Shown here: positions 2,852 to 18,197 of the stretch, piece by piece | Layout: the number at the start of each line of letters is the position of its first letter | Numbering within the stretch: the first letter of the stretch is position 1 | NCBI RefSeq assembly: GCF_000373145.1 | Contig: NZ_KB890621.1 | Coordinates: 62,001-126,000, forward strand | DNA: 64,000 bases | Source: Thermus oshimai DSM 12092 | GTDB taxonomy: Bacteria > Deinococcota > Deinococci > Deinococcales > Thermaceae | Direction: 5' to 3' | Position numbers and translations under genes: made by a program | Notes under the pieces: generated by a model | Seen by the model: the letters and a program-made list of their open reading frames with translations, nothing else | What the model was told of the DNA's origin: nothing | Databases searched by the model: none

Positions 2852-3005
2852 GGCCGCTCTCATCGAGGAAATCGGTTTAAAGAAAGGTGCGCTTCCTAGG
2901 ATACGCTTAACCCATAATGGGGTGGGTGTGGGGATTCCCGAAGGAAGCGAAGAGGGCCGGTCAAAGGGGTTGCCCAACGAAGCCCGGCGGCCCCCATCCT
3001 ACCGT

Positions 3006-3545
3006 ATGCGCGTGCCTTGGCCAAAACTCCTAGGCGCTTTCCTCTACGTGGGCTTCACCGCGTTCGGCGGTGGGGGCACCGCCCACCTTTACCAGCTCGT
3101 GGTGGTGCGGCGGGGCTGGCTGAGCGAGAGGGAGTTCCTCGAGGCCGCCGCCCTATGCCGGATCCTCCCGGGGCCGGTTTTCGCCAACCTGGCCGCCCAC
3201 CTGGGAACACGGCTGGGAGGGATTCCGGGCGGGGTGGCGGCCCTCATAGGGGTGCTCTTCCCCGGGGCGAGCCTGATGCTGGCCCTAAGCCTGGCCTACT
3301 TCCATTTAGGAACCCAACCCGGATCCTCCGCCGCCGAGGCCTTGAGGGGCATCATGGCCTCAGCCATCGGGTTGATCCTGGCGACCACGTTGCACCAGGC
3401 ACGGATCGGGCTGGACTCCCCCAAGGCGGTTGCCCTGGCCCTTTGGGTGTTCGTAACCTACGGCCTCTTCCATTGGCCCCTTCCCATGGTGCTCCTTTCG
3501 GCGGTCCCCGTGGGGGTGGCCTTCTACTGGAGGGAAAGCCGATGA
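3006..3545 (+). CDS. chrA: Chromate transporter, N-terminal-type subunit
   Basis: Membrane protein of 179 aa, one half of a chromate (CHR family) transporter. It carries the signature FTAFGGGGTAHLYQL near residue 20 and the second motif LPGPVFANLAAHLGTRLGG near residue 60, followed by hydrophobic helices. Short CHR proteins occur as adjacent gene pairs whose products act together, and that is the case here: its TGA overlaps the next gene's ATG. The start at 3006 begins right before the conserved WPKLLGAF helix; the frame is open upstream to 2922 but that extension is polar and not family-like. A CATAAT at 2913-2918 may be its -10 element. The ligand in vivo may be chromate or sulfate. Confidence 0.85.
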   Translation: MRVPWPKLLGAFLYVGFTAFGGGGTAHLYQLVVVRRGWLSEREFLEAAALCRILPGPVFANLAAHLGTRLGGIPGGVAALIGVLFPGASLMLALSLAYFHLGTQPGSSAAEALRGIMASAIGLILATTLHQARIGLDSPKAVALALWVFVTYGLFHWPLPMVLLSAVPVGVAFYWRESR

Positions 3546-4060
3546 GAGAAGAGCTGGAGATCTTCCTGACCTTTTTTCGCCTAGGCCTCATCAGCTTTGG
3601 GGGCGGGATGGCCAACCTGCCCGAGATGGCCCGCGTCCTCACCGCCCGGGGGTGGGTCACGCCCCGGGAGTTCGCCGACGGCTTCGCCCTCGGCCAGTTC
3701 GTGCCCGGACCCAACATGCTGGCGGTGGTGTTCTACGGCCTGAAGGCAGGCGGCTTAGGGGGGACTTTGGCCGCCCTGCTGGGAATGTTCCTGCCTGGAG
3801 CCACAGGGGCTGCCCTCCTGGTCCATGTCCGGGAGTGGATGGCGCGCGCCCGCTGGAGCCGGGCCTTGCGCAGGGCCTTGGTCCCCATAGGCATGGGCCT
3901 TTCGTTTAGCGTCCTCCTGACCCTCATCCAGATGGGGTTGGACAGCTTGGGGAGCCTTCTCCTCGTGGGGCTGTCCGCTTTCTTGATTTACCGGGGAAAG
4001 GGTATCCTTCCGGTCCTGCTGGCAGGAGCCGTACTGGGGCTTCTGCTTCCTGGGGTGTGA
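3542..4060 (+). CDS. chrA: Chromate transporter, C-terminal-type subunit
   Basis: Second CHR-family half, 172 aa, with the paralogous signature LGLISFGGGMANLPEM near residue 14 and FVPGPNMLAVVFYGLKAGG near residue 54. It starts with ATG inside an ATGA overlap with the first half, so the two are translationally coupled and probably form a heterodimer with opposite topology. Several hydrophobic helices follow. It ends just before the AT-rich origin region. The two-gene split, rather than one long ChrA, is normal for this subfamily. Confidence 0.85.
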   Translation: MREELEIFLTFFRLGLISFGGGMANLPEMARVLTARGWVTPREFADGFALGQFVPGPNMLAVVFYGLKAGGLGGTLAALLGMFLPGATGAALLVHVREWMARARWSRALRRALVPIGMGLSFSVLLTLIQMGLDSLGSLLLVGLSAFLIYRGKGILPVLLAGAVLGLLLPGV

Positions 4061-4084: not shown

Positions 4085-4541
4085 GAAAGCCCTGTTTAAT
4101 GTTAAAAGTCCAGATTTATCGGCTCTGTTGTTGATTTCTTTTAAAAGCTTTAAACCCCTTAAAACATATTGTTGATAAACAACAAGGAGGCCCCCCGGCC
4201 CCGGCTTTTCGCCGTGCAGGACGCAAGCCGCTCCCCAAAACGCCCCAAGTCTTCCGATAGAACTCCCCAAGTCTTCCGATACCAACTCCCCAAGTCTTCC
4301 GATAGTCCGGGGTCCAAACTCCCCAAGTCTTCCGATACCAACTCCCCAAGTCTTCCGATAGCGATTCCCCAAGTCTTCCGATACCTCAAGCCCCAAACGC
4401 CCCAAGTCTTCCGATACCTTGGGGCCCGAACTCCCCAAGTCTTCCGATAGGGGGGCTTGAGGGGATAAATTCCCTTTTTCATCGCAAAAATCCCCTTTTG
4501 GCCCCTTTAGGGGTCCCCCGAACTCCCCAAGTCTTCCGATA
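4085..4541. other. Replication origin of the megaplasmid (AT-rich tract, DnaA-box-like site, iterons)
   Basis: Between chrA and repA the sequence turns sharply AT-rich (about 4085-4182), unlike nearly everything else here, which suits a DNA-unwinding element. At its edge TGTTGATAA (4172-4180) differs by one base from the consensus DnaA box TGTGGATAA and sits in the palindrome TTGTT-GATAAAC-AACAA. Nine iterons follow (4243-4541), then the 3' end of repA. The combination of unwinding element, DnaA site, iterons and an adjacent initiator gene is the standard layout of an iteron plasmid origin. Confidence 0.8.
4243..4541 (+). repeat. Nine iterons, core CCCCAAGTCTTCCGATA
   Basis: Identical 17-base cores start at 4243, 4265, 4288, 4321, 4344, 4367, 4400, 4433 and 4525. 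Start-to-start distances are 22, 23, 33, 23, 23, 33, 33 and 92 bp, so the first eight are phased on two or three helical turns. Most are preceded by CT or CG and followed by G or C. They are the expected binding sites for RepA. The last copy is separated by an AT-containing spacer and ends three bases from the repA stop codon. Confidence 0.9.
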
Positions 4542-5924: not shown

Positions 5925-5934
5925 GCTGGGAAAC

Positions 5935-5974
5935 AGTTTACCTGGAGAGGGGATAGGGGCCTCCGAAGTATAAT
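5935..5974. promoter_or_regulatory. Divergent leaderless promoters of repA and eda
   Basis: On the plus strand a perfect TATAAT (5969-5974) ends eight bases before the eda ATG. On the minus strand TAAACT (5935-5940) ends ten bases before the repA ATG. Neither gene has a Shine-Dalgarno sequence in the short gap, so both mRNAs probably begin at or next to the start codon. No good -35 hexamer is visible for either. Confidence 0.55.
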
Positions 5975-5982
5975 CTTGGGCG

Positions 5983-6600
5983 ATGGCCCCCGCGCTGGAG
6001 GCGGCTCTGGCGGCCGCCAAGGTTCTACCCATCCTAACCCCGAGGACCCTGGAGGGCCTCGAGGGGCTGGGGGAGGCCCTCTTAGAGGCGGGGTTCTCCT
6101 GGATGGAGGTGACCCTCCGCACCCCCCTGGCCCTGGAGGCCATCCGCCGCCTCCGGGCCCTGGGCCTGGAGGTGGGGGCGGGGACGGTGCTGAACGAAGC
6201 GCAGGCGGAAGAGGCCCTGGCGGCCGGGGCCTCCTTCCTGGTGTCCCCCGGGCTCAGCCCGGGCCTGGCCCGCTGGGCGGAGGCCCAGGGCCTCCCCTAC
6301 CTCCCGGGGGTGGCCACCCCCACCGAGGTCCAGGAAGCCCTGGCCCTGGGCCTCCGCCTCCTCAAGTTCTTCCCCGCGGAGGCCATGGGCGGGGTGCGCA
6401 CCCTTAAGGCCTACGCCCCTGTTTTCCCGGGGGTGCGCTTCGTCCCCACCGGGGGCATCGGCCCGGAAACCCTCGAGGCCTACCTGGCCCTGGAAAACGT
6501 TCTGGCCTGCGGGGGAAGCTGGCTCTTGGAAGGGAGCCTGGAGGAGGTCCGGACCAAGCTTAGGGGGCTGGGGAAGCTCAGGCCCCAAGCTCAGCGCTGA
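5983..6600 (+). CDS. eda: 2-dehydro-3-deoxyphosphogluconate (KDPG) aldolase
   Basis: Class I aldolase of 205 aa that splits KDPG into pyruvate and glyceraldehyde 3-phosphate, the last step of the Entner-Doudoroff and uronate routes. The Schiff-base lysine is K128 in LLKFFPAEAMGG, the general acid/base glutamate is E42 in WMEVTLRTP, and VGAGTVLN (64-71) and PGVATPTE are conserved. Length matches the family. It is leaderless behind TATAAT. It is divergent from repA, and its 3' end overlaps the convergent iclR gene by 23 bp. With KDG kinase (8489-9415) it forms a complete KDG-to-triose route. Confidence 0.92.
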   Translation: MAPALEAALAAAKVLPILTPRTLEGLEGLGEALLEAGFSWMEVTLRTPLALEAIRRLRALGLEVGAGTVLNEAQAEEALAAGASFLVSPGLSPGLARWAEAQGLPYLPGVATPTEVQEALALGLRLLKFFPAEAMGGVRTLKAYAPVFPGVRFVPTGGIGPETLEAYLALENVLACGGSWLLEGSLEEVRTKLRGLGKLRPQAQR

Positions 6601-16386: not shown

Positions 16387-17304
16387 ATGAAGGAAAGGCT
16401 GGTGCCCCTGAGCCTCTGGGCCGAGCAGCGGGGGATTCCCGGCTCCACTGCCCGCAAGATGGCCGAGGAGCGGGAGATCCCCGCCCGCAAGCTGGGCCGC
16501 TACTGGTACGTGGTGGAGGAGGTGGAGGAGGGGAGCGGCCAGGGCCGGGTCCTCACCCTCTTCAACCACGCGGGGGGGGTGGGGAAGACCACCCTGGCCC
16601 GGGACCTGGGGTTTGAGCTGGCCTCGAGGGGCCACCGGGTCCTCCTGGTGGACGTGGACCCCCAGGCCAACCTCACCCAGTGGCTGGGCCTGGGGCCCGT
16701 GGAGGAGAAGGACACCCTCCTCACCCTGACGGGCGGGGTCCTGCCCGAGCCCAAGGAGGCCTACGGGATGCACGTGATCCCCAGCAGCCTCCGCCTGGCG
16801 GTCCTGGACGTGAAGCTGAAGTCCGTCCCCGCGGGGGAGCTCCTCCTGAGGCGCAAGCTCCAGGCGGTGCGGGAGGCCTACGACTTCATCCTGGTGGACT
16901 CCCCGCCCTCCCTGGGGCCCCTTTCCTTCCTGGCCGGCCTGGCGGGGGAGGGGTTCATCGTCCCCGTGGAGACCACGGCCAAGGGCCTGCAGGGGCTCGA
17001 GGGGGTGATGGAGGTGTCCGAGCTCTACGCCACCGCGGTGGGGGCGGCCAACTTCATCCGCCTCCTGGTGCCCACCCGCTACGACCCCCGCTCCCGCACC
17101 GCCCAGGAGGCCCTGGAGGGGGTACTGAGCCTGGGCAAGCGCTTCCCCGTGGCCCCGCCCCTGCACGAGCGCCCCGGCCCCTTCCGCCGCAGCGCGGCGG
17201 AGCGGGTGCCCATCCACATGGTGGACGGGGCCCAGGAGGCGGTGCGGGAGGTCCAGGCCATCGCCGACGCCCTCCTGAAGGTGGCCCAGGAGGTGGAGGC
17301 ATGA
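16387..17304 (+). CDS. parA: ParA-family partition ATPase with N-terminal DNA-binding domain
   Basis: Partition ATPase of 305 aa that moves plasmid copies apart together with ParB. Residues 1-45 look like an excisionase/MerR-type helix-turn-helix (LSLWAEQRGIPGSTARKM), as in ParA proteins that repress their own operon. The ATPase part follows: HAGGVGKTTLARDLGFELA with K67 (Walker A), VLLVDVDPQANLT (A'), FILVDSPPSLGPL (Walker B). The usual first lysine of the deviant Walker motif (KGGxGKT) is alanine here. Its TGA overlaps the parB ATG. Lies about 10 kb from repA and the origin. Confidence 0.92.
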   Translation: MKERLVPLSLWAEQRGIPGSTARKMAEEREIPARKLGRYWYVVEEVEEGSGQGRVLTLFNHAGGVGKTTLARDLGFELASRGHRVLLVDVDPQANLTQWLGLGPVEEKDTLLTLTGGVLPEPKEAYGMHVIPSSLRLAVLDVKLKSVPAGELLLRRKLQAVREAYDFILVDSPPSLGPLSFLAGLAGEGFIVPVETTAKGLQGLEGVMEVSELYATAVGAANFIRLLVPTRYDPRSRTAQEALEGVLSLGKRFPVAPPLHERPGPFRRSAAERVPIHMVDGAQEAVREVQAIADALLKVAQEVEA

Positions 17305-18197
17305 GCCAGCTCCGGGAACTCTTGGGCCACCTGGAGGCCAAGGCCGAGGCCCTGGATAGGCGCCTCAAGGCCCGGACCGCCCTCCCCCTCTCCGCCCTCC
17401 TCCCCTCCCCCCACCAGCCCCGGAAGCGCCTGGAGGGCCTGGAAGACCTCGCCGCTTCCATCCAGGAGAAAGGAATCCTCCAGCCCCTCCTGGTGCGCCC
17501 CCTGGGGGAGGGGCGGTACGAGATCGTGGCCGGGGAGCGCCGGTACCGGGCGGCGAAGATGGCGGGCCTCGAGGAGGTCCCGGTGGTGGTCCTGGACCTC
17601 ACCCCCGAGGAGGCCCGCGCCGTCGCCCTCATCGAGAACCTCAAGCGGGAGGACCTGAACCCCTACGAGGAGACCGTGGCCCTCCTGGACCTCCTGGCCC
17701 TCAGGCTGGGGACGGACCGGGAGGGGGCGGCCAAGGCCCTCCAGAACCTCCTCCAGGCGGAGAAGCGGAAGGGGGAGGTGTCCCATAACGTTATGGGACA
17801 GGCGGAGGTGGTGGAGGAGGTCTTCCGCACCGCCGCCCGCCTGGACTGGCGCTCCTTCGTCCAGAACCGCCTCCCCCTCCTCCGCCTCCCCGAGGACCTG
17901 AAGGCCGCCCTGGAGGAAGGGGCCATCCCCTATACCGCCGCCCTGGAGCTCAAGAAGGTGAGGGACGAGGGCGTGCGGAAGGCCCTCCTGGAGGAGGCCA
18001 GGGCGGGGCTTTCCTTAAGGGACCTCAGGGCCCGGGTGCGGGCGGTTCTAGAGGGAAAGCGGGAGGAGAGGAAGGGAGACCTGGCCCTTCGCCTGAAGGC
18101 CCTCCTCCCCCGGCTCAGGACCCTCTCTCCGGAAAGGCGGGCTCGGGCGGAAACCCTTTTGGCGGAGCTGGAGGCCCTAGTCCGAGGGAAGAAGTAG
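17301..18197 (+). CDS. parB: ParB-family centromere-binding protein
   Basis: Partition protein of 298 aa. The N-terminal CTP-binding/sulfiredoxin-like region is clear: LSALLPSPHQPRKRLEGLEDL, GILQPLLVRPLG, then the box EIVAGERRYRAAKMAG near residue 75 and ALIENLKREDLNPYEE near residue 113. A helix-turn-helix region follows (about 130-200), then a charged C-terminal dimerisation helix. The coding sequence contains a perfect 22-bp palindrome at 17779-17800, a candidate parS. Coupled to parA by an ATGA overlap. Confidence 0.92.
   Translation: MSQLRELLGHLEAKAEALDRRLKARTALPLSALLPSPHQPRKRLEGLEDLAASIQEKGILQPLLVRPLGEGRYEIVAGERRYRAAKMAGLEEVPVVVLDLTPEEARAVALIENLKREDLNPYEETVALLDLLALRLGTDREGAAKALQNLLQAEKRKGEVSHNVMGQAEVVEEVFRTAARLDWRSFVQNRLPLLRLPEDLKAALEEGAIPYTAALELKKVRDEGVRKALLEEARAGLSLRDLRARVRAVLEGKREERKGDLALRLKALLPRLRTLSPERRARAETLLAELEALVRGKK
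17779..17800. promoter_or_regulatory. parS: Candidate parS centromere: perfect 22-bp palindrome inside parB
   Basis: Each half is TGTCCCATAAC and its exact complement; the centre is AACGTT. It encodes SHNVMGQ, in the linker just before the ParB DNA-binding region. Long perfect palindromes of this kind are rare by chance, and plasmid parS sites are often palindromes in or next to parAB. It does not match the chromosomal parS consensus (TGTTTCACGTGAAACA) beyond the TGT..ACA ends, so the assignment is inferred from form and place. Confidence 0.55.

Follow-up and report, generated by a model that had tools for sequence, protein, structure and literature searches.

Iteron-type plasmid origins combine direct repeats, an adjacent AT-rich DNA unwinding element (DUE) and a winged-helix Rep protein; DnaA boxes are common in the class without defining it. 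F and RK2-like plasmids, with RepE and TrfA as their two-winged-helix Rep proteins, carry iterons plus a DUE and DnaA boxes in many of their origins, and sensitivity to half-turn insertions has been reported for them (PMC10797057). In Vibrio cholerae, the chromosome 2 origin ori2 sets iterons beside a DUE in which the initiator RctB binds (G/A)ATCA as single-stranded DNA; ori2 also carries Dam-methylated 12-mers, 29/39-mers, an IHF site and a DnaA box, the last being the one element among these that was sought here. In Deinococcus radiodurans, the iteron arrays cisII (chromosome II) and cisMP (megaplasmid) maintain an otherwise non-replicating plasmid, and copy number falls when they are lost; homologues of RepC and RctB were sought for these replicons, none was found and no Rep was named (PMC7671480). 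For Thermus, we found no paper in the open-access literature that joins the genus, a megaplasmid and iterons, and the origin of T. thermophilus pTT27 may be described in the subscription literature.

We analysed a 64,000-nt stretch (the window) that is part of a 185-kb Thermus contig and carries a real iteron origin of the known class, in a position displaced in this lineage. With a probability of about 0.88, an RPA-type (RctB/RepE-like) megaplasmid starts its replication at this iteron array, where binding of RepA to the iterons opens an AT-rich tract. The locus is built from the following features.

4125–4187, no strand assigned: putative DUE, an AT-rich tract with inverted arms, recognized by composition, inverted repeat and conservation
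4125–4135: left arm, CTGTTGTTGAT
4170–4178, minus strand: TTATCAACA, a DnaA-like 9-mer one mismatch from TTATCCACA, overlapping the arm and not conserved
4176–4187: right arm, ATAAACAACAAG
4213–4228, minus strand: conserved element CTTGCGTCCTGCACGG in the interval between iterons and AT-rich tract, found in alignments
4243, 4265, 4288, 4321, 4344, 4367, 4400, 4433 and 4525, plus strand: starts of the iterons, exact copies of CCCCAAGTCTTCCGATA (start-to-start distances 22, 23, 33, 23, 23, 33, 33 and 92 bp)
4243–4449, plus strand: the eight phased iterons, covering the first seven of these distances
4450–4524, no strand assigned: 75-bp gap between iterons 8 and 9 (92 bp start to start), its length quantized in relatives
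4525–4541, plus strand: solitary ninth iteron, adjoining the repA stop codon
4545–5924, minus strand: repA, 459 aa, RPA-family replication initiator (Pfam RPA, 2e-50)
5925–5983, minus strand: repA promoter region, from an alignment of Thermus loci

The nine 17-bp iterons, which span 4243–4541, are exact copies of one another, and eight of them are 22–23 or 33 bp apart, as a preliminary description of this DNA had stated. It had likewise placed them at the 3′ end of repA, and the last iteron indeed lies 4 bp from the end of the gene. Its observation that the repA promoter holds no iteron, together with its proposal to look for further copies nearby, led to the same answer over a wider range: with up to 3 mismatches, neither the 64,000-nt window (chance expectation 0.18) nor the 2.26-Mb genome holds a further iteron, and no dispersed copies that could serve as titration sites were found on the plasmid. 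Comparison with relatives bounds the conserved element at about 4125 to 4541, with 4085–4124 not conserved. The counterparts of CTTGCGTCCTGCACGG in relatives are GCGTCCTGGA or TCCAGCACGC, and an element of this type is unrecognizable in alignments of the T. thermophilus clade. The GC skew of the 185-kb contig, with its minimum at 90 kb versus the array at 66 kb, gives no pointer to the array.

RepA scores 171.8 bits against the Pfam RPA family (PF10134; cut-off 27) and is identical to the RepA of the T. oshimai JL-2 plasmid pTHEOS01 (271,713 bp). A search of the PDB with its sequence gave no match, and no sequence-level match to RctB was found. An AlphaFold model built with 24 relatives (mean pLDDT 80) was compared with solved structures by Foldseek: its closest fold is that of domains 2–3 of RctB, the Vibrio chromosome 2 initiator (E 6e-9), and it also matches operator-bound RepE of plasmid F (E 9e-4). 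Judged by this model, RepA resembles two-winged-helix initiators with a helical C-terminal part in addition, and is thus predicted to be a winged-helix Rep of the kind found at iteron-type origins. The only element common to the Thermus repA promoters is a −10-like TAnAAT/TAAACT, located some 10 nt ahead of the ATG; their alignment holds no iteron and no conserved operator beyond this −10.

The iterons follow a helical rule that extends across the phylum. Against a simple null of uniform spacings, the in-phase regularity of the window array, which is built in quanta of about 11 bp like other Deinococcota RPA origins, has p ~1e-4. Among 17 representative RPA architectures with several unrelated iteron sequences, from lineages that are not fully independent, 132 of the 141 short spacers deviate by no more than 1.5 bp from a multiple of 11.1 bp, against an expectation of 29%, and the best in-phase period is 11.0–11.2 bp. 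Long gaps of 51–125 bp keep a similar register (p 0.002), with lengths in relatives of 79/80, 89–92, 102–104 and 113–115 bp; they are the weaker part of the case, and all gaps above 50 bp taken alone fit best at another period in a wide search. The phylum-wide comparison upholds functional helical phasing as first proposed, but the accompanying claim that RepA binds on one DNA face holds only at about 11.1 bp per turn and not at 10.5, where each two- or three-turn step rotates neighbouring sites by ~50 degrees. This leaves two possibilities: underwinding of the DNA, in the complex or in vivo, or an array that follows a shallow helix and has no strict single face. In other plasmids, Rep binding and replication are reported to suffer when half a turn is inserted between iterons (PMC10797057).

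The AT-rich tract noted earlier beside the iterons is plainly present: GC content is 0.38 at 4100–4199 versus 0.6–0.75 in the flanking genes, which gives the array the adjacent AT-rich sequence of an iteron-type DUE. An inverted repeat, 4126–4135/4175–4184, was found in the window, and conservation of the tract stops sharply at the outer arm. In relatives, the AT-rich tract runs for roughly 35–55 bp between arms TGWTGWTG and CAWCAWCA, inverted triplets in contrast to the direct 13-mers that form the DUE repeats of RK2. The arm pattern occurs in 25 of 34 modules and in no shuffled sequence; the remaining nine are in part truncated contigs or misassigned ends, and in the T. thermophilus clade the right arm is truly degraded. 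The motif (G/A)ATCA (RATCA), known from the single strand of ori2, is also enriched in the RPA-origin family, at 2.38 per 130 bp versus 0.50 in shuffles, with one occurrence in the window itself. As a lead for further work, these motifs hint that RepA might capture the arms as single strands.

Deinococcota RPA origins usually lie 5′ of repA, a placement that does not define them and from which the window departs. The module of Meiothermus, Allomeiothermus, D. peraridilitoris and other Thermaceae stands on the 5′ side of repA with its orientation and internal order unchanged, namely 2–5 iterons, a long gap, 7–8 iterons, the GCGTCCTGGA-type element, the AT tract with inverted arms, the −10 and repA. 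In more distant Deinococcus species and in a sister family, too, the array is found 5′ of repA. Among the lineages compared, the 3′ position is confined to Thermus, where an orthologous array lies 3′ of repA in every RPA locus whose flanking sequence is long enough. A midpoint-rooted RepA tree, with long branches outside the Thermaceae, requires a single change to the 3′ position (support 99/100). Because the 5′ position is common to all outgroups, the module was probably 5′ ancestrally and passed to the 3′ side a single time, in the lineage of Thermus. D. deserti and Deinococcus sp. AJ005 (L046, L066) have the AT tract distal to repA and the array apparently inverted as a block, a layout suggesting that the module may function in either orientation.

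Within Thermus, iterons stay conserved while their spacers diverge freely: 14 loci hold 124 iterons, 119 of them exact, and 8 of their 2108 bases are substituted. Aligned with each other, the window plasmid and the JL-2 plasmid agree in all 153 iteron columns and differ in 36 of the 313 other columns; most of these differences are found past the outer arm of the AT tract, at which homology stops. The initial proposal of an iteron origin for RepA is supported. Among the closest described systems, pTT27 of T. thermophilus HB27 and HB8 has a RepA about 78–79% identical to that of the window, the same 17-bp iteron, an array 3′ of repA and the same spacing rule. Unlike the window plasmid, it has a degraded right DUE arm, a long gap of 79 rather than 92 bp, parAB directly after the origin, and extra iterons in and beyond parB. 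Each of the two pTT27 plasmids (L040, L041) has three such dispersed iterons, inside parB and 1–4 kb further, in the same orientation, which may titrate or pair with RepA. In the window, parAB lies more than 10 kb from repA, versus the adjacent repA, origin and parAB of T. thermophilus.

16387–17304, plus strand: parA
17301–18197, plus strand: parB, a 58% match to pTT27 ParB

The arrays beside the RPA genes of D. radiodurans (L065 on chromosome II, L064 on the megaplasmid) carry iterons identical to those published for cisII and cisMP. Like the window, both have iterons by an RPA-family repA, in steps of 22/32–33 bp in cisII and of 32 bp plus longer gaps in cisMP, and an AT-rich tract set between inverted arms of this type. 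They differ in that the module is directly 5′ of repA, the iteron sequence is unrelated and RepA is about 33% identical. The RPA gene beside each array is the obvious candidate for the cisII or cisMP initiator.

Could host DnaA bind TTATCAACA and open the AT tract, with RepA merely helping? The preliminary description had pointed to a near-perfect DnaA site; the 9-mer is there at 4170–4178 on the minus strand, the DnaA of D. radiodurans binds both cisII and cisMP in vitro (PMC7671480), and DnaA could act without a canonical box. However, TTATCAACA is absent from the JL-2 plasmid, where one base differs despite identical RepA and iterons, and its kind is no more frequent than chance: DnaA-like 9-mers number 4 in the window (2.4 expected) and 4 in the 34 modules, with 2 in the DUE-side stretch against 1.1 expected. 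We therefore rejected a DnaA box here and read TTATCAACA as a one-plasmid variant of the conserved inverted-repeat arm, and we consider a DnaA-led origin improbable. Because DnaA boxes are common but not universal in the class, a missing box does not exclude membership. One of the few DnaA boxes in the RPA-origin family is a perfect TTATCCACA within the iteron array of D. proteolyticus (L068), about −390 from repA. The repeats might instead form a partition (centromere) or incompatibility locus and not an origin, given that D. radiodurans ParB binds the cisII and cisMP iterons and that direct repeats are reported to flank the pTT27 par region (PMC7671480 and PMC4409726, respectively). This is very unlikely for the window: parAB, at 16387–18197, has no iteron nearby, the ParB site of the T. 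thermophilus megaplasmid is a different 14-bp palindrome, and the array retains its AT-rich element with inverted arms and stays by repA even where parAB lies apart from it. A parSm-like palindrome, AAGGACGCGTCCTT, is absent from the window.

The phasing, in turn, might reflect common descent of one tandem array instead of selection for register. The homology of the Thermus arrays is clear, and where plasmids differ little in RepA their array length shifts by the copying of whole blocks of three iterons (78–79 bp), with 15 versus 9 iterons in L018 and L017 and 6 versus 9 in L012 and L011. Against this, unrelated iterons in Deinococcus and the sister family keep the same 22/33 rule, and homologous long gaps differ in ~11-bp steps (79, 90, 103 and 114); the sequence of the spacers varies freely. 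Because unrelated iterons obey one rule and gaps shift by ~11 bp, selection on register is the best explanation; descent alone has little chance of accounting for the pattern, and the spacings argue that phasing was probably selected for helical register.

For the RPA-type origin, we infer a course of events in which RepA from the adjacent gene would bind the nine iterons. Their two- or three-turn spacing, at ~11.1 bp per turn, would line up the protomers of RepA as a single stereospecific complex, and the solitary ninth iteron would keep roughly the same register as the array. The complex would melt the adjoining AT-rich tract at 4125–4187, RepA would probably capture one strand through the inverted TGWTGWTG/(G/A)ATCA arms, and helicase loading would follow. 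The module would work whatever its position relative to repA. Copy control by titration or pairing of iterons is plausible, and handcuffing in place of simple autorepression, as the preliminary description suggested, may operate here. Neither arrangement puts iterons over the repA −10; where the module is 5′ of the gene, the array stops well short of it. In several Thermus loci (L010–L012, L014 and others) the long gap contains a strong GC hairpin that leads into a run of T in the repA sense, possibly a repA terminator. The 75-bp gap of the window, unlike these, has no clear hairpin, and we rejected a terminator role for it.

A broader reading, which we offer tentatively and regard as possible but rather doubtful, is that Deinococcota RPA origins represent a distinct relocatable design in which opening proceeds without any DnaA box: a RepA array in strict 11-bp phase by a DUE, inverted TGWTGWTG/(G/A)ATCA border arms gripped by RepA as single strands from both sides, and copy control kept after the move to the other end of the gene. 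We found no description of the phylum-wide phasing rule in the accessible literature. The comparison links scarcely characterized megaplasmids and secondary chromosomes of Thermus, Meiothermus and Deinococcus through one origin design, and supplies the likely missing initiator for D. radiodurans cisII and cisMP. Further, natural variants in phasing and array length offer a test of how register and iteron number relate to initiation and copy number in a genetically tractable thermophile.

Finally, the surroundings of the module are less stable than the module itself. In the window, two short membrane-protein open reading frames at 2995–4060 on the plus strand flank the origin and resemble a putative split chromate transporter, and the JL-2 plasmid has an ABC transporter at the same position. 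The flanking genes of the two plasmids differ, therefore neighbours turn over while the module stays.
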